Positions 10,957-18,013 of a stretch of DNA of 64,000 nt are shown here, one piece after another. Source of the stretch: Xylanimonas allomyrinae. GTDB lineage: Bacteria > Actinomycetota > Actinomycetes > Actinomycetales > Cellulomonadaceae. The notes beneath the pieces are model-generated. The model saw only the letters and a list, made by a program, of their open reading frames with translations. It did not search any database and was not told the origin of the DNA. The stretch lies in the NCBI RefSeq assembly GCF_004135345.1, contig NZ_CP035495.1:1240001-1304000 (forward strand). The letters run 5' to 3'. How positions within the stretch are numbered: position 1 is the first letter of the stretch; each line of letters opens with the position of its first letter. The position numbers and the translations under genes are program-made.

Positions 10957-11094
10957 CTCTCCCCGAAGGCGCAACCCGCACGCGCCGGACATGGCGTGGT
11001 TCACGCTGCACCTACGCGTGTGACGCCGGTCGTGCTCTTACAGTGGGACGTCAGCCGGTGGGTATCAGCGCGCGCGCCGCGCAGGGGGGCAGGG

Positions 11095-12972
11095 ATGGCG
11101 AAGAGTCGACCGTCACGCGAGACGCCGCGACACGTGCGGCACCACGGGACGAGAACCAGGCCGTCCCCTGCACCGGTACCTGCCCCGGCGGCACCTCCCG
11201 TGCGCCGTCCGGTGGCCGCCGGATCGCGCGTCGGCTACCCGGTCCTGACCGGCCCGACCGATCCCACCGAGCTCCTGCCGATCGTCGAGTTCGCGCCGGG
11301 CGACGCCCCCGCGTCTCAGCCCTCGGGCGCCGCGGCAGGCACCGGGGCGGACCTGGGACGCAACACGCTCATCCTGACGATCGGCACCTTCCTGTCTCGC
11401 GCGTCGGGGCAGGTGCGCGCCATGCTGCTCGTCGGCGCGATCGGCATCAGCGGCACCGTCGCGAACGCGTTCGACGTCGCCAACACGCTGCCCAACATGC
11501 TGTTCGCGCTGCTCGCGGCCGGCGTCCTGCAAGCCGTGCTCATGCCGCAGATCATGCGCGCGCTCCAGGCCGACGACGGCAAGCAGCGCCTCGACAAGCT
11601 GCTGACGATCTCGCTGGCCGCGCTCGTGGGCGTGACCGCCCTGCTCGTGGCCGCGACTCCGCTGCTCATCAGGCTCTTCACCCTGGCCGGCGACTGGTCG
11701 CCCCAGGCCCGCGCACTCGCGGTGACCTTCGGGTTCTGGTGCATCCCGCAGGTGCTCTTCTACGGCCTGTTCTCGATCCTGAGCGAGACCCTCAACGCGC
11801 GCGGTCAGTTCGCCGCGAGCGGACTGGCACCCATCGCCAACAACGTCATCTCCGTCATCGGGTTCGGCGCGTTCATCATCCTGTACGGGGGAGCCGACGG
11901 GCCGCTGGACGACCTGACCCTGTGGTCGACGCGGCAGACCGTGCTGCTGGCCGGCACCGCGACCCTCGGCATCATCGCGCAGTCGGCAGTGCTGCTCGTC
12001 GCGCTACGACGCGGCGGCTACCACTGGCACCTGCGCTGGGGGCTGCACGGCATCGGGCTGCGATCCGCGAGCAGGGTGGTCGGCTGGACGCTCGGCGCCG
12101 TCGTCCTGGAGCAGATCGGGCTCATCTACCTGCGCAACGTCACCGGCGCGGCGGGCCAGGCGGCCGCCGGCGAGGCCGTCGCGACAGCCGGCAACGCCGT
12201 CTTCACGAACGCGCTGACCATCTACCTGCTCCCCCACTCGCTGGTCATCCTGTCGATCATGCAGGCGCTGTTCCCCCGCATGTCGCGCTCCGCGGCGGCC
12301 GGTGATCTCGACGACGTCCGCGACGCCATGTCGACGGGCCTGCGGTCGGCGGGCATCTTCTCCGTCATCTCGACGGCCCTGTTCGTCGTCCTTGCCGAAC
12401 CCGGCATGAAGGCGCTCCTGCCCACGCTCCAGCCCTCCGCGGTCGAGCTGTCGGCGCCGGTGCTGCGTGCGCTCGCATTCGGCCTGGTGGCGCTCGGTGC
12501 CACCGCGATGATCAAGCGCATGTACTTCGCCTTCGAGGACGGACGGGGAATCTTCGTCATCCAGATCGTCGCGACCATCGCCCTCAGCGGCGTGCTGTGG
12601 CTCGCCGTGCAGACCTTGGACTCCCGGTACTGGGCGGTCGCCGCCGCCGCCGGGTACTCGCTCTCCGCATGGGTGTCGGTGCTGCTGCGCGCCGGCGGCA
12701 TGAGCAAGAAGCTGGGCGGGATCGACGGTCCCCGCATCGTCCGGCTCCACCTGCGCGCGATCATCGCCGCCCTCCTGGCATCGGGTGCCGGGTACTGGGT
12801 GACACGGCTCATCGGCGGCTACGGCGACCTCACGTGGCTGCGGGCCGTCACCACGTGCGTCCTCGCGGGCGGGACGATGCTCGGCGTCTACTTCGCGGGG
12901 CTGCGGCTCATGCGGGTGCGTGAGCTGGATGCGGCGCTCAAGCCCCTGCTGCGTCGCCTCGGCCGCCGCTAG
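11095..12972 (+). CDS. murJ: MurJ-like lipid II flippase
   Basis: A 625-residue MOP/MATE-superfamily integral membrane protein, matching MurJ (MviN), which moves lipid II across the cytoplasmic membrane. A Pro/Arg-rich cytoplasmic N-terminus (about 1-85) precedes the first helix at NTLILTIGTFLSRASGQVRA, the MurJ opening with its Arg; about 14 hydrophobic segments follow, ending near residue 615. LPNMLFALLAAGVLQAVLMP and the SIMQALFPRMS loop match the family. The ATG at 11095 is preceded by a purine-rich ribosome site (aggggggcaggg). The adjacent convergent cluster builds peptidoglycan bridges, so this gene fits a cell-wall neighbourhood. The 138 bases upstream hold no gene. Confidence 0.87.
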   Translation: MAKSRPSRETPRHVRHHGTRTRPSPAPVPAPAAPPVRRPVAAGSRVGYPVLTGPTDPTELLPIVEFAPGDAPASQPSGAAAGTGADLGRNTLILTIGTFLSRASGQVRAMLLVGAIGISGTVANAFDVANTLPNMLFALLAAGVLQAVLMPQIMRALQADDGKQRLDKLLTISLAALVGVTALLVAATPLLIRLFTLAGDWSPQARALAVTFGFWCIPQVLFYGLFSILSETLNARGQFAASGLAPIANNVISVIGFGAFIILYGGADGPLDDLTLWSTRQTVLLAGTATLGIIAQSAVLLVALRRGGYHWHLRWGLHGIGLRSASRVVGWTLGAVVLEQIGLIYLRNVTGAAGQAAAGEAVATAGNAVFTNALTIYLLPHSLVILSIMQALFPRMSRSAAAGDLDDVRDAMSTGLRSAGIFSVISTALFVVLAEPGMKALLPTLQPSAVELSAPVLRALAFGLVALGATAMIKRMYFAFEDGRGIFVIQIVATIALSGVLWLAVQTLDSRYWAVAAAAGYSLSAWVSVLLRAGGMSKKLGGIDGPRIVRLHLRAIIAALLASGAGYWVTRLIGGYGDLTWLRAVTTCVLAGGTMLGVYFAGLRLMRVRELDAALKPLLRRLGRR

Positions 12973-13014: not shown

Positions 13015-14028
13015 TCAGCGCGACCGCACCGCACGCACCGCCTTCTTCGCGGCAGGCAACGCGCGCTCCCACAGTGCGTACAGGGGCCGATTGAGCGGCA
13101 CGTCCCAGCTGCCGACCAGCTCGTCTTCGTGCTTGGCGAAGCTGCGCTTGAACTCGCCGATGCCGTCGTTGAGCAGGCCGTTGAGGTCGTAGCGCCGCAC
13201 GCCCTTCGCGCGCGCGTCCTCGATGGACGCCCAGTACACCGCTGCCGTGGCGCGCAGACGGCGGCCCGCCTCGTTCGCACCGCCGTACAGCAGGAACGCC
13301 GTCTCGCCGGATGCCACCGCCCAGGCGAAGCAGCACGGGTTTCCGTCCTCGTCGAACGCGGAGACCAGGCGCGACGCGTCCCCGAGCTCGCGGTGCACCG
13401 CGAGGTAGTACTCGTCGTCGTGCAGCACGAAGCCGGCGCGCTGCGCGGTGGTGCGGTACACGTCGAGCACCTGGCGCACCTCCTCCTGCGTGGTGATCCT
13501 GCGGATCACCAGACCGTCGCGCGCAGCCTTGCGGATCTCGTACCGCGTGGACTTGCGCATGTCGGCCAGCAGCGCGTCCGGCTCGCGCCCCAGGTCGAGG
13601 ATGAGCGTCGACGGGTACAGGATCGTGTTGCGGCCCGGTCGCGCGGCCGGCAGGCCCAGTGCCGTCCCCGCGGCCCAGTCCGGCTCGAACGTGACACCGA
13701 TGGCCCCGGCGTTCTGCGTGCACCAGTCGACGACGGCGTGGGCCACGGCGGCGCGGTCGTCGTCGGACCCCACGCCGTCGGGTCCGACGACGGGGCCGCG
13801 CGGCACATACGCGAGCGCCTTGAAGGGCGCGGGAAGGTGGCGCACCAGGACCTGCGCGAGGCCGACCACCGCGCCGTTCGCGTCCGCGACCTGAATGCGG
13901 CGGGCAGTCCACGGCCCGCCCTCCTTGACCGATCCCCAGCCCCAGAGCTGCAAGGGGTGGCCCCCCAGCCCGGAGACGGCACGATCCCAGGCCGCTCGGT
14001 CGCGAACCTCGGTGACGGTCACTGACAT
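13015..14028 (-). CDS. FemX-like aminoacyl-tRNA-dependent peptidoglycan bridge transferase (short)
   Basis: A 337-residue FemABX-family transferase, which adds an amino acid from aminoacyl-tRNA to the side chain of the stem peptide in lipid II. Visible FemABX signatures are HPLQLWGWGSVKEGGPW (about 26-42), a GNAT-like core, the DMRKSTRYEIRKAARDGL helix-strand, and the C-terminal ASIEDARAKGVRRYDLNGL...IGEFKRSFAKHEDELVG. I chose the ATG at 14026-14028 because AGGAG precedes it at 7 bases; an ATG at 14041-14043 in frame overlaps the upstream stop. It is the last gene of a three-gene operon with the longer FemX-like and ATP-grasp genes. The amino acid carried cannot be deduced. Confidence 0.87.
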   Translation of the reverse strand: MSVTVTEVRDRAAWDRAVSGLGGHPLQLWGWGSVKEGGPWTARRIQVADANGAVVGLAQVLVRHLPAPFKALAYVPRGPVVGPDGVGSDDDRAAVAHAVVDWCTQNAGAIGVTFEPDWAAGTALGLPAARPGRNTILYPSTLILDLGREPDALLADMRKSTRYEIRKAARDGLVIRRITTQEEVRQVLDVYRTTAQRAGFVLHDDEYYLAVHRELGDASRLVSAFDEDGNPCCFAWAVASGETAFLLYGGANEAGRRLRATAAVYWASIEDARAKGVRRYDLNGLLNDGIGEFKRSFAKHEDELVGSWDVPLNRPLYALWERALPAAKKAVRAVRSR

Positions 14029-14039
14029 TCCCGAACTCC

Positions 14040-15263
14040 TCATCCGCGGCCCAGGGCGCGCTTGGTGACCTGGATCAGCCGGTGCTTCGCCTTGCTCGGG
14101 TAGTACGTGAACCGGCCGACCTTGCGCACCACATGACCCGAGAAGTGCTGCTTGAACCTCAGGACGCCGTCCGAGCCGTCGAACACGCCGTCGATGCCGA
14201 GCATGTTGTAGCGGCCGACGCCGCGCGCCACCGCGTCGCCGAGCACGTGGTCCTGGATCGCGTACGGCCCGTAGAACTGCGACAGCGTGTCGTCGGACCC
14301 GCTGAACAGGTACACCAGCTCGTCGGCGCTGTCGACGAACAGCGACGCCGCGAGCGGGAGCGGCCCGCTGCCGCGCTCGGCCGCGATCCGCGCGGACTCG
14401 GCGAGGCGCGCGCGGTGGGTGGCGATCTGTGCCGCCCACTCGTCGCGCTGGCCTTGCTTCTTGGGCGAGGCAGAAGCGGCGATCCGCGCTTCCAGGTCGG
14501 CGATCTGACGGTGCAGTCCGGATGCGTACGCCTCGAGGTCGACCTCGGCGAGCAGGAACTGCGCCTGGCGGCCGAACGCGTCGAAGAACGCCTCGTAGTA
14601 GCCCAGCGTGTGGTCGTCGTAGCCGCGGCGCGCGCTGGTCATCGCCGTGATGCGTTTGAACGTGCCGAGCTCGTCGCGGGTCAGACGCCGTACGCGCACC
14701 CCGAACGCCTGCGCGCGCTTGACCGCGTACAGGCCGTCCTTGCCGTACGACCGGCGCAGGGCGGCGGTGTCCGTGAGGCCGGAGAGGTCCTTGACGAAGT
14801 GCCAGCCGGGCTCGCCGCCCTCGTATCCGGCGGCCACGCCGCCGTGCGCGTACCCGAGCGCCGTCAGCGCCCGGACCAGGGAGGTGTCCGGTTCGGTGCG
14901 GGGCGTGCCGTCGGCCTCGTGCTCGCGGTAGTCGGCGTCGGGGAGCACCACGAGCTCGAGGGCCCCGATCCGCTTGGCGTACTCGCGCATGGCATCGAAG
15001 AAGAACGCCGCGGCCTCGGCGTCCGGACCCCCGACGGGACCGTACTGGACCTCGGCGTGCGTGCCGCCCAGCATCGGCTTGGACACCACGCGTGAGGCCA
15101 GCACGACGTCGTCGCCGCGCAGCACGGCCACGTGCCGCACCGTCCAGCCTCCGTGGCGCAGCACCGCGGCCATCGGGGCCGCCTGCAAGAAGCTCGCGTG
15201 CGCGGCGGCGCCGACGAACGCGGCAAACCGGTCCTCGCTCAGCTCCGCCAGCCGGAGCGTCAT
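14040..15263 (-). CDS. FemX-like peptidoglycan bridge transferase (long, with coiled coil)
   Basis: A 407-residue FemABX-family protein. Two GNAT-like domains are recognisable (SFLQAAPMAAVLRHGGWTVR at about 24-43; DLSGLTDTAALRRSYGKDG), separated late by an alpha-helical coiled-coil hairpin (about 250-295, HRQIADLEARIAAS...WAAQIATHRARLAESARIA) like the tRNA-interacting arm of FemA/FemX. The family end VGRYNMLGIDGVFDGSDGVLRFKQHFSG is present. Its start overlaps the ATP-grasp stop by 4 bases, and the short FemX gene follows 12 bases later, so the three are surely co-expressed. Two FemX enzymes suggest either two L-residues or two alternative residues in the bridge. Cytoplasmic, acting on lipid II. 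Confidence 0.88.
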   Translation of the reverse strand: MTLRLAELSEDRFAAFVGAAAHASFLQAAPMAAVLRHGGWTVRHVAVLRGDDVVLASRVVSKPMLGGTHAEVQYGPVGGPDAEAAAFFFDAMREYAKRIGALELVVLPDADYREHEADGTPRTEPDTSLVRALTALGYAHGGVAAGYEGGEPGWHFVKDLSGLTDTAALRRSYGKDGLYAVKRAQAFGVRVRRLTRDELGTFKRITAMTSARRGYDDHTLGYYEAFFDAFGRQAQFLLAEVDLEAYASGLHRQIADLEARIAASASPKKQGQRDEWAAQIATHRARLAESARIAAERGSGPLPLAASLFVDSADELVYLFSGSDDTLSQFYGPYAIQDHVLGDAVARGVGRYNMLGIDGVFDGSDGVLRFKQHFSGHVVRKVGRFTYYPSKAKHRLIQVTKRALGRG

Positions 15264-16546
15264 CGGGCCGCCCTCGGGCGGCTCGCGCTCTGCTCGTGCA
15301 GGCGTCGCAGCTCGTCCATCGGCAGGTACCTGCGGTACTTGCGCCAGTAGTTGACGGCCTGGGCGAGCGCGTAGACGCGCCGCTTGAGGCCGAAGTCGCG
15401 CGCGTAGCGCAGCGGGTGCACCGTGCGGCCGGACCGCATGAGCGCGACGGCGCGGGCCCGGAGCGCCGGGTCCAGCAGGTACCTGCGCAGGAGAAGGTGG
15501 GGAACCGTCGCGTAGAGCACCTCGGTGCGTGCCGTGACCGGCTCGCGCGACAGTCCCCGCACGACGTCGTCGACGAGCACCTCGGCGACGTTGGCGCCGC
15601 CGGCCGTGACGTAGTAGTTGTTCCGGCCTATCCGTGGGTTCTGCTCGAAGAACCGGAACACGCCGTCGCGCGGGTCACGCTTGACGTCGAAGTTCGCGAA
15701 ACCGCGCCAGCCCGTCGCCTCGTTGATCCGCACGGCCGCGTCGACCAGGTCGGGAATGTCCTCGACGATCATCGCCGTCGGGTTGCCGCGCGTGATCGGC
15801 GTGTGCTCCTCGAGCAGCACGCGAGCCGCGGCCCGCAACGTCACGCGGCCGGCCCCGTCCGTATAGGTCGTCACCGAGCGCATCTCCGTGTCGTCACCCG
15901 GCACCGTGTCCTGCACCAGGAACCGGCCCCGGAACCCCGCGGCCCGCAACGACTCGTAGAGCGAGTCGAGCTGTGACTGCTCGGTGAGCTCGTAGATCTT
16001 CGCCTTGCCCGGGAAGACGACCCCGTAGTAGTCGGCGCTCGACGCGGGCTTGGCGATCACGGGGAACGGGAAGTGGACCGGCAGCGGCGTCCAGCCCGGC
16101 GAGTCCGCCTCCGCGAAGTCCTGCACGACGGTGGCCGGGGTCGCGATGCCGAGGCTGTCGCAGATCTGGATGAACTCGGCCTTGTCGCCGAGCCGGTCGA
16201 CGAGCTCGCCCGAGGCGAGCGGGACCAGGTAGCCGGCCGCCTCGAGCTCGGTCCGCCGGTGGGCGAGCACGTTGACGACCGAGTCCATGTTCGTCAGCGC
16301 GATGAGCTGCTCCGGACCGGTGTGCGCGGCGGCGACGCTCACCAGCGTCTCGATGACGTCGTCGGACGCCAGGCTCTGGCAGATCACCAGGTCGATGATC
16401 GCCGAGCTGGCGATCGGGCCGGGCTCGGCGAGCGCGACGACGGTGGACCGCGCGCCGTAGCGCTCGTGGAAGGCGCGGGCGAGCGCGTAGACGCCGATGT
16501 CCGGCCCGACGATGACGGGCCGGACGGCCAGGGGTGAGGTGGGCAC
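15260..16546 (-). CDS. ATP-grasp carboxylate-amine ligase, candidate D-aspartate/D-glutamate ligase
   Basis: A 428-residue ATP-grasp enzyme. The N-terminus VRPVIVGPDIGVYALARAFHE is the preATP-grasp strand; ATP-grasp core motifs follow: FPFPVIAKPASSADYYG (about 160-176, with the ATP lysine), GRFLVQDTVPGDDTEM (about 209-224), and the metal-binding GFANFDVKRDPRDG...FFEQNPRIGRNNYYV (about 282-310). The overall layout resembles the enterococcal D-aspartate ligase that joins a D-residue to the stem lysine. Because it leads an operon with two FemX-like transferases, I infer that it adds a D-amino acid (D-Asp or D-Glu) to the cross-bridge of an A4-type peptidoglycan. Substrate identity is inference. 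Confidence 0.8.
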   Translation of the reverse strand: MPTSPLAVRPVIVGPDIGVYALARAFHERYGARSTVVALAEPGPIASSAIIDLVICQSLASDDVIETLVSVAAAHTGPEQLIALTNMDSVVNVLAHRRTELEAAGYLVPLASGELVDRLGDKAEFIQICDSLGIATPATVVQDFAEADSPGWTPLPVHFPFPVIAKPASSADYYGVVFPGKAKIYELTEQSQLDSLYESLRAAGFRGRFLVQDTVPGDDTEMRSVTTYTDGAGRVTLRAAARVLLEEHTPITRGNPTAMIVEDIPDLVDAAVRINEATGWRGFANFDVKRDPRDGVFRFFEQNPRIGRNNYYVTAGGANVAEVLVDDVVRGLSREPVTARTEVLYATVPHLLLRRYLLDPALRARAVALMRSGRTVHPLRYARDFGLKRRVYALAQAVNYWRKYRRYLPMDELRRLHEQSASRPRAAR

Positions 16547-16549
16547 GCC

Positions 16550-18013
16550 TCAGGCCTCCGACTCGGTGCGGTCGCCCGACCACTCGGTGTGGAAGGTGCC
16601 GTCCCGGTCGACGCGGCGGTAGGTGTGCGCGCCGAAGAAGTCGCGCTGCGCCTGGATCAGCGCGGCGGGCAGGCGCTGCGCGCGCACGCCGTCGTAGTAG
16701 GCGAGCGACGAGGAGAACGCCGGGGTGGGCACGCCGTGGGTCGCGGCGGCTGCCACCACGCGCCGCCAGGCGGCCAGACCGCCGGCGACGGCGTCCGTGA
16801 AGTACGGGTCGGCCAGCAGCAGCGGCAGCTGCGGGTCGCGCTCGTACGCCTCGGTGATGCGGTTGAGGAACCGCGCGCGAATGATGCAGCCGCCACGCCA
16901 GATGCGGGCCATCGCACCCCGGTCGATGTCCCAGCCGTTCTCGGCCGACGCCGCCGCGATCTGGTCGAAGCCCTGCGAGTAGGCCACGACCTTCGACGCG
17001 TACAGCGCCAGGCGCACGTCCTCGACGAATGCCTCCCGGTCGGGGACCGACCACGGCTCGGCGTCGGCGGGCAGCGCGGACCGCGCGGCCTCGCGCTGCG
17101 GCACCCCGCCCGACAGGGCGCGGGCGAACGTCGCCTCCGCGATCCCGGTGATCGGCACGCCCAGGTCGAGCCCGTTCTGCACCGTCCACCGGCCGGTGCC
17201 CTTCTGCTCGGCCTGGTCCAGGACGACGTCGACGAACGCCTGGCCCGTCTTCGCGTCGACATGCCCGAGCACGTCCGCGGTGATCTCGATGAGGAACGAC
17301 TCGAGGTCACCGGTGTTCCACCGCGCGAAGATCTCGCCGATCTCCTGTGCCGAGGCGCCCAGGCCCTGGCGCAGCAGGTCGTACGCCTCGGCGATGAGCT
17401 GCATGTCGGCGTACTCGATGCCGTTGTGCACCATCTTGACGAAGTGACCGGCGCCGTCGGGCCCGACGTAGGTGCAGCACGGCACGCCGTCGACCTTCGC
17501 CGCGATGTCCTCGAGGATCGGGCCCAGCCACGTGTACGACTCGCGCGTGCCGCCCGGCATGATCGACGGGCCGTTGAGCGCGCCCTCCTCGCCGCCCGAC
17601 ACGCCGGTGCCCACGAAGTGCAGGCCGTGGGCGCGCAGCGCCTTCTCCCGGCGGATCGTGTCGGGGAAGTGCGCGTTGCCGGCGTCGATGACGATGTCGC
17701 CCTGCTCCAGCAGCGGGACGAGCTCCTCGATCACGGCGTCCGTCGGTCCGCCCGCCTTGACCATGACGACGACCTTGCGGGGGCGGGCGAGCGACGCGAC
17801 GAAGTCGGCCATCGACTCGGAGGCGACGAACGTGCCCTCGTGACCGGCCTCCTCGACGAGCGAGCGCGTCTTGGCGACGGAGCGGTTGTGCACCGCGACC
17901 GTGTAGCCGTGCCGGGCGAAGTTGCGGGCCAGGTTGCGGCCCATGACCGCCAGGCCCGTCACACCGATGTCTGCGGTGCCGCTGCCGACGCCGGGCCCCG
18001 TGGTCTCGCTCAT
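16550..18013 (-). CDS. gnd: 6-phosphogluconate dehydrogenase, decarboxylating
   Basis: A 487-residue enzyme of the oxidative pentose phosphate pathway: 6-phosphogluconate + NADP+ gives ribulose 5-phosphate + CO2 + NADPH. The N-terminal Rossmann fold shows IGVTGLAVMGRNLARNFARHG (the GxAxxG fingerprint) and HNRS as the NADP-type second-strand end. The substrate motif GTGVSGGEEGALNGPSIMPGG (about 136-156) and the catalytic lysine/asparagine segment FVKMVHNGIEYADMQ (about 191-205) are intact, and the length matches the long dimeric family (about 470-490). It ends 3 bases before the ATP-grasp start, which may mean co-transcription with the cell-wall operon. Tandem repeats lie upstream. Confidence 0.95.
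   Translation of the reverse strand: MSETTGPGVGSGTADIGVTGLAVMGRNLARNFARHGYTVAVHNRSVAKTRSLVEEAGHEGTFVASESMADFVASLARPRKVVVMVKAGGPTDAVIEELVPLLEQGDIVIDAGNAHFPDTIRREKALRAHGLHFVGTGVSGGEEGALNGPSIMPGGTRESYTWLGPILEDIAAKVDGVPCCTYVGPDGAGHFVKMVHNGIEYADMQLIAEAYDLLRQGLGASAQEIGEIFARWNTGDLESFLIEITADVLGHVDAKTGQAFVDVVLDQAEQKGTGRWTVQNGLDLGVPITGIAEATFARALSGGVPQREAARSALPADAEPWSVPDREAFVEDVRLALYASKVVAYSQGFDQIAAASAENGWDIDRGAMARIWRGGCIIRARFLNRITEAYERDPQLPLLLADPYFTDAVAGGLAAWRRVVAAAATHGVPTPAFSSSLAYYDGVRAQRLPAALIQAQRDFFGAHTYRRVDRDGTFHTEWSGDRTESEA

Follow-up and report, generated by a model that had tools for sequence, protein, structure and literature searches.

An operon of Xylanimonas allomyrinae predicted to build a peptidoglycan bridge of L- and D-residues

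Introduction

The composition of the interpeptide bridge of peptidoglycan has long been used as a taxonomic character in actinobacteria. The genome of Xylanimonas allomyrinae raises the question of which bridge is made by three adjacent genes, encoding an ATP-grasp ligase, a FemA-type and a FemX-type aminoacyl-tRNA transferase, in a stretch of 64,000 nucleotides (contig NZ_CP035495.1, positions 1,240,001 to 1,304,000; 'the window', to which all coordinates below refer). Comparison with the genes of relatives makes it rather probable that this operon is responsible for the interpeptide bridge of a peptidoglycan of the A4alpha, L-Lys type, with the predicted composition L-Lys-(L-aa)1-2-D-Glu (aa, amino acid). 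D-Glu is quite likely to be the D-residue of the bridge, and two L-residues are slightly favoured over one or a variable one. The enzymes are of known kinds in a new combination.

In the known chemistry of these families, the residues added by Fem enzymes are L-amino acids or Gly taken from tRNA, and the ligase adds a D-residue with ATP (excerpts of PMC4155827). In the proposed scheme, FemX would use aminoacyl-tRNA to attach an L-amino acid (or Gly) to the epsilon-amino group of L-Lys in the cytoplasmic precursor, and FemA would join a second amino acid to the first one. The ATP-grasp ligase would act last, activating the carboxylate of a D-amino acid as an acyl phosphate and joining it to the free alpha-amine, and the product, L-Lys-L-aa-L-aa-D-Glu, would be flipped in its lipid-linked form by MurJ, which is encoded next door. 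The order FemX-FemA-ligase and the identity of the L-residues are presumptive, and it is only the ligase that suggests a dicarboxylic amino acid in the bridge.

Two gene switches and the published wall types

Among 200 genomes of the GTDB family, 194 have the ligase, 83 have FemAB and 89 have a strong match to an aspartate racemase (cut-off E 1e-60; 106 at E 1e-15). All 83 FemAB-bearing genomes also have the ligase, and none has FemAB alone. The racemase is unevenly distributed among classes of ligase similarity, which are bins of the best E-value against the window ligase and not clades. In the genomes with one ligase and no Fem gene, the racemase occurs in 24 of 25 of the middle class, in none of the 61 of the near class and in the single one of the most distant class; in the Fem-bearing genomes with one ligase, the respective values are 13/16 for the middle class, 0/22 for the next nearer class and 16/28 for the most distant one. 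Most genomes with two ligases have the racemase as well (21/24 without Fem, 14/16 with Fem). Within a single genus, that of Cellulomonas flavigena (60 genomes), it is found in 17/20 genomes of the middle class, 0/36 of the near class and 0/4 of the remaining ones; in C. flavigena itself, the racemase match starts about 50 bases past the ligase match. In another genus, one member of which (G287) has a ligase that groups with that of Oerskovia merdavium, the racemase state is mixed, with 2 of 7 genomes having it.

The bridge is given as L-Lys-D-Asp in Xylanimonas cellulosilytica (PMC3035249), Orn with D-Asp in C. flavigena (PMC3035266), L-Lys-Ser-D-Glu in Sanguibacter keddieii (PMC3035225), L-Lys-L-Ser-D-Glu in Jonesia denitrificans (PMC3035236) and L-Orn-D-Glu in Pengzhenrongella (P. 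phosphoraccumulans and P. sicca; PMC11165906), in each case in the parts of these papers that were available. X. cellulosilytica and C. flavigena have the racemase and no Fem, S. keddieii and J. denitrificans have Fem and no racemase, and Pengzhenrongella has neither, as judged from the P. frigida locus and its 10-kb flanks, the walls being those of other species of the genus. A comparison of cluster presence with published chemotypes across genera, suggested in an earlier note on this DNA, was run on these partly available descriptions, and all five wall types fit two switches: Fem stands for an L-residue in the bridge, the racemase for D-Asp and its absence for D-Glu. No paper linking genes to bridge chemotype in these genera was found in the open-licence literature. 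A simpler rule, by which the number of ligases equals the number of D-residues, is broken by X. cellulosilytica, and Brachybacterium faecium provides no test of the rule, its wall being given in the available text as A4gamma with meso-diaminopimelic acid, Ala and Glu.

This Xylanimonas genome has no match to the aspartate racemase, and its only FemAB matches are the two genes of the operon; the bridge is therefore predicted to contain an L-residue and D-Glu. A single match to PF01177 (Asp/Glu racemase family), 1 Mb from the operon, is taken as MurI. The MurE motif DDDPHG is common to this genome, X. cellulosilytica and S. keddieii, and one Cellulomonas genome reads ENPR. It is the sharing of DDDPHG with these two organisms, whose published walls contain L-Lys as far as the available text goes, that suggests L-Lys at position 3. 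A direct A1 cross-link is unlikely, given the presence of bridge enzymes and the MurE motif of two L-Lys walls.

The Fem transferases and the L-residues

Both Fem proteins belong to the FemABX family, with PF02388 (FemAB) matches of E 1.8e-105 and 353.5 bits for the FemA type and of E 2.4e-26 and 93 bits for the FemX type (cut-off 24), and aminoacyl-tRNA-dependent transfer is predicted for both. The best solved match of the FemA-type protein, by sequence and by fold, is Staphylococcus aureus FemA (1lrz; template modelling score 0.83), and its model has the helical arms (helices 243-263 and 267-297). The best solved sequence matches of the FemX-type protein are FemX-type enzymes (6snr, followed by the W. 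viridescens enzyme), and its closest relative is the protein of another Xylanimonas genome, G205 (74%). The two genes are thus, to judge from their matches, not close paralogues, one being nearest to FemA and the other to FemX-type enzymes. The description of two different FemX-like enzymes in the earlier note stands as far as the difference goes; they represent the FemA and FemX subfamilies, not the halves of a duplicated pair. The bridge with two L-residues that the note offered as a possibility is the slightly favoured prediction here.

In S. aureus (FemXAB) and Enterococcus faecalis (BppA1/BppA2), successive tRNA-dependent transferases likewise build a multi-residue bridge (partial text of PMC4155827); the Fem genes of the window differ from these in sharing an operon with a putative D-amino-acid ligase. 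FemX is also found near a ligase in Sanguibacter, Jonesia, Promicromonospora and X. pachnodae, beside gnd (the gene for 6-phosphogluconate dehydrogenase) in all except Jonesia, but these loci have a single Fem gene and a ligase of another lineage. The window is the only locus with more than one Fem gene among the 70 family loci examined. A precedent for the arrangement is genome G002, where a ligase (33% identical) is followed on the same strand by two FemA-like genes of the window's type.

At E 1e-15, the FemA type is present in 1 of the 200 family genomes and in 1 of 396 genomes of the phylum, in each case this Xylanimonas, and in 17 of 396 genomes of the order, this one included. Ten of the 17 belong to one genus, with 1-4 such genes each (31-41% identical), which is probably Bifidobacterium because its best named matches are plasmid-borne B. 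longum genes. Eight other family genomes (G172, G197, G220, G239, G261, G300, G315 and G360) have three PF02388 stretches each, from which the number of genes cannot be separated; the claim is limited to the presence of the FemA type in 1/200 family genomes, and a second FemAB gene elsewhere in the family cannot be denied. Among plasmid records, FemA-like genes occur in Staphylococcus (30) and Bifidobacterium (4).

The lysostaphin immunity factors (Lif/Epr) provide a model for a Fem protein that swaps a residue of an existing bridge. By analogy, FemX alone would add one L-residue and FemA would be an acquired modifier that swaps a residue and protects the wall, which would be heterogeneous, from foreign bridge-cutting enzymes. 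The rarity of this FemA (1/200 family genomes, 1/11 of the genus) and the plasmid-borne relatives would agree with such a role, as would the ligase-FemX pairs without FemA in X. pachnodae, G205 and G264; however, the gene lies inside a biosynthetic operon, overlapping the ligase gene translationally, and its GC content at third codon positions (GC3, 0.944) resembles that of the genes around it, as in a settled gene and not a fresh guest. This alternative is unlikely, and the addition of a second L-residue by FemA is slightly preferred. A recent transfer of femA, judged by composition, is unsupported, both GC (0.719) and GC3 matching the neighbours.

As a separate observation, the B. longum plasmid NZ_CP065398.1 (L219, 3725-5011) carries a bridge gene of the FemA/FemB family; large plasmids of this kind are a possible vehicle for bridge changes.

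The ligase and the D-residue

The ligase is recognised by its fold more readily than by family profiles. Its Pfam match (ATPgrasp_Ter, 21.1 bits against a cut-off of 29.1) and its NCBIfam matches (carbamoyl-phosphate-synthase-like, the best with 50.3 bits against 316) are below threshold, and a sequence search of solved structures gave nothing useful; the AlphaFold model (mean predicted local distance difference test score 92.5) gives Foldseek matches to ATP-grasp enzymes at E about 1e-15 and identifies the protein, at the level of a model, as an ATP-grasp fold enzyme. By tblastn, it matches lactobacillar ligases (27-29% identity over 89-96%, E 5e-53 to 7e-41). AslA of Lactococcus lactis and Aslfm of Enterococcus faecium are likewise ATP-grasp carboxylate-amine ligases for the D-residue of the bridge (excerpts of PMC4155827), the homology being seen via the lactobacillar relatives and not via these two characterised sequences themselves. 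The window ligase differs from them in having no racemase partner found, in its coupling to Fem transferases and in the prediction of D-Glu. The racemase shares 38% identity over 201 residues with a Latilactobacillus curvatus protein that is annotated as an amino acid racemase and lies beside a carboxylate-amine ligase; two further lactobacillar relatives of the window ligase lack an adjacent racemase.

The closest relatives of the window ligase, at 63-69% identity, are the ligases of the LIG_A lineage in Isoptericola, X. cellulosilytica and Puerhibacterium; its identity to the ligases of the one-FemX loci of Sanguibacter, Jonesia, Promicromonospora and X. pachnodae is 44-48%. In a tree rooted on the L. 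curvatus ligase, a clade of 76 ligases without a linked racemase (Shimodaira-Hasegawa-like approximate likelihood ratio test, 98) contains LIG_A, LIG_C, the near type of Cellulomonas and the window ligase, but none of 23 other racemase-linked ligases. Six alignment columns (136, 220, 224, 236, 306 and 309) fully separate 24 racemase-linked from 63 other ligases, and at all six, the window ligase and 12 LIG_A sequences have the residue of the non-linked class, differing there from the racemase-linked ligases. Both the tree and the column comparison omit 20 of the 120 gathered ligases, mostly near-duplicates. In the columns, 'racemase-linked' is assigned by neighbourhood, LIG_A is set apart despite sharing a run with LIG_B and the racemase, and the Brachybacterium ligases L104, L108 and L109, which converge on the racemase of a facing ligase, are counted as non-linked. 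On a class score, the window ligase has +93, and the 24 racemase-linked ligases -15 to -203.

As a side observation, the Brachybacterium loci L104, L108 and L109 have a Glu-type ligase that converges on a racemase following an Asp-type ligase, and other Brachybacterium and Helcobacillus loci (L076, L083 and L110) have two ligases and no racemase in the flank.

D-Glu is favoured over D-Asp because no aspartate racemase was found and because the ligase belongs to the clade without a linked racemase. The emphasis that the earlier note placed on D-Asp, in likening the enzyme to D-aspartate ligase, is on the same grounds, together with the six columns, probably wrong. Its broader proposal, an A4-type bridge in which a Fem enzyme adds the L-residue and the ligase the D-residue, fits the five published walls, so far as their available descriptions go, the chemistry in this organism being deduced from theirs. 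If the ligase nevertheless used D-Asp from another source, the bridge would be L-Lys-L-aa(s)-D-Asp. Such a specificity would be in line with the distant homology to lactobacillar ligases, one of which (but not two others) lies beside a racemase, with the common operon of aslA and racD in L. lactis (PMC4155827, in part) and with the inclusion among the nearest kin of an organism whose bridge is given as L-Lys-D-Asp in the available text (PMC3035249). Against it stand the genome, in which no aspartate racemase was found, the clade and the non-linked residues at 6/6 columns, so that D-Asp seems a rather improbable D-residue here.

The window ligase has also changed more than its relatives. It is nested in LIG_A on an end branch of 0.57-0.6, compared with 0.02-0.16 for the other members of the clade, and departs from 33 of 232 columns that are invariant in LIG_A, compared with at most 7 of 239 for any LIG_A member left out in turn; by comparison, the window gnd has a branch of 0.12, near G264 and X. 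pachnodae (0.11), and that of G205 is 0.44. Across the other 108 ligases, 59 columns are conserved in at least 95% of the sequences, and the window ligase retains 58 of these. Such unusually fast divergence with the conserved core kept would be expected of a functional enzyme whose substrate has changed; in our reading, the new acceptor would be a product of the Fem enzymes in place of Lys or D-Asp.

Several observations weigh against the predicted L-Lys-L-aa-L-aa-D-Glu bridge. With respect to the D-residue, an unrecognised racemase could supply D-Asp, and the non-linked ligase class is backed by few measured walls. The six columns may track descent instead of specificity. The score of +93 is slightly below those of all 63 non-linked ligases (97.7 to 181.5) and of all 12 LIG_A (93.7 to 122.2), and at columns 213, 268, 280 and 332, where the separation is strong but incomplete, the window ligase carries the residue often found among the racemase-linked ones; the 33 changed columns may mean that its specificity has shifted. 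With respect to the number of residues, FemA may exchange or vary a residue and not lengthen the bridge. Besides LIG_A, Isoptericola and X. cellulosilytica have a racemase-linked ligase, and X. cellulosilytica has both ligase classes yet a bridge given, in the available part of the source, as the one-residue L-Lys-D-Asp (PMC3035249); the number of genes is no measure of the number of residues, and LIG_A may have another job.

That the ligase acts off the bridge altogether, for example by capping another wall component, with the Fem pair alone making an L-only bridge (A3alpha), is improbable, since even though LIG_A is kept with three sets of partners (LIG_B and racemase; a Cellulomonas-like ligase; FemX and FemA), as if it had one independent job, the locus of Pengzhenrongella, a genus with a D-Glu bridge in the available text, shows no bridge enzyme other than a single ligase from the same broad clade, and every Fem-bearing genome of the family has a ligase.

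Cassettes downstream of gnd

gnd lies directly 5' of a ligase in 63 of the 70 family loci examined, the window included, so that the adjacency exceeds chance and gnd is part of a conserved locus. Within the genus (ligase in 10 of 11 genomes, FemX in 5, FemA in 1), three states follow gnd: LIG_A, LIG_B and aspartate racemase in X. cellulosilytica and G238; LIG_C and FemX, followed by convergent murJ and without FemA, in G205, G264 and X. pachnodae; and LIG_A, FemA and FemX, followed by convergent murJ, in the window. X. oleitrophica (L038, 9989-12546) has a mixed cassette, LIG_A beside a Cellulomonas-like ligase, with no racemase within the flank.

The named loci are the best 80 of at least 564 confirmed candidates by match to the window ligase and lean toward its class. 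Among them, all 11 Isoptericola and Puerhibacterium loci (L034-L045 without L038) have LIG_A, LIG_B and the racemase; compared with the window, the gnd-LIG_A-LIG_B-racemase loci of Isoptericola and X. cellulosilytica have no Fem, and the second ligase and the racemase stand in the place of FemA and FemX. Each of the named Cellulomonas loci shows a single ligase, with no Fem or racemase in the flank, and Promicromonospora, Myceligenerans, Oerskovia, Sanguibacter and Sediminihabitans have one FemX within the flanks. One further record, L046, titled Cellulosimicrobium cellulans DE0111, may be misnamed; its ligase groups with Cellulomonas hominis-like sequences, and there is no Fem or racemase within 10 kb.

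The operon of the window is, by sequence affinity, a mosaic of a ligase of the two-ligase lineage of Isoptericola and X. cellulosilytica, the FemX of the genus and an added FemA. On a gnd tree of 53 loci, from which a list of 12 loci is left out, at least 7 changes of the racemase state and 6 of the FemX state are counted; the tree is weak (in a similar tree, 17 of the 53 inner branches are starred), and gnd may travel with the cassette. Repeated cassette exchange beside gnd is thus hinted at, not proved.

More tentatively, and with somewhat less than even confidence, the stretch downstream of gnd may be viewed as a chemotype-switch locus, where cassettes (a racemase-linked Asp-type ligase, a Glu-type ligase, Fem and ligase, or two ligases) replace one another at a single address. 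The bridge would then be readable from two switches, Fem and the racemase or ligase class, with Ser224, Asn309 and other residues setting D-Glu against D-Asp, and the window would represent a newly assembled state, L-Lys-L-aa-L-aa-D-Glu, with parts of three lineages and a ligase adapting to its new acceptor. If the two switches hold, the wall chemotype could be read from the genome, a few point changes could serve to test ligase specificity, and this Xylanimonas would be a natural case of a bridge rebuilt by mixing modules.

Layout of the locus and its surroundings

The features of the locus are listed in Table 1. On the minus strand, the order is gnd, ligase, FemA type, FemX type, with junctions of 3, -4 and 11 nucleotides; the second is an ATGA overlap, and AGGAG precedes the start of the FemX-type gene. 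The earlier note had placed the ligase and the two Fem genes, overlapping or nearly touching, in one operon, which is borne out for all three; the span that it gave has correct coordinates, and the operon plausibly extends further, to gnd. It also placed murJ next door in convergent orientation; murJ indeed ends 42 bp from the femX stop, an adjacency found in only part of the genus. Both neighbours have strong Pfam matches (MurJ, E 1.1e-61; 6PGD, E 1.3e-125). Asn309 of the ligase adjoins the conserved stretch NPRIGR.

Table 1. Genes and codons of the putative bridge locus, in window coordinates
Feature	Coordinates	Strand	Remarks
ATP-grasp ligase, predicted to add D-Glu, LIG_A lineage	15260..16546	-	GTG start, 428 aa
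FemA-type aminoacyl-tRNA transferase with helical arms, predicted to add second L-residue	14040..15263	-	ATG start, 407 aa
FemX-type aminoacyl-tRNA transferase, predicted to add first L-residue to L-Lys	13015..14028	-	ATG start, 337 aa
gnd, 6-phosphogluconate dehydrogenase, conserved upstream neighbour	16550..18013	-	Pfam 6PGD; probably co-transcribed
murJ, lipid II flippase, convergent neighbour	10996..12972	+	Pfam MurJ; context, outside operon
Codon of ligase Ser224	15875..15877	-	Separating column, I/V vs S; counted by hand from GTG at 16546
Codon of ligase Asn309	15620..15622	-	Separating column, S/A vs N; counted by hand from GTG at 16546

Scans for promoters and terminators found none of either. 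An anti-phage role was considered and rejected, with no PADLOC match for the ligase, the FemA-type or the FemX-type protein. Elsewhere in the window (23777-62233), Pfam searches of 10 long open reading frames point to ordinary housekeeping genes, namely those for a radical SAM protein, DXP synthase, a protein with an IMP dehydrogenase domain, an inositol monophosphatase family member, a DUF3071 protein and subunit A of gyrase/topoisomerase IV; 4 frames have no match. The assembly also has a second contig of 32,160 bases, which is probably a plasmid: its first 20 kb, which were compared, match parts of actinobacterial plasmids with TraM-recognition, ArdC-like and ParA genes, and the best match among plasmid records spans 10% at 77.7%.

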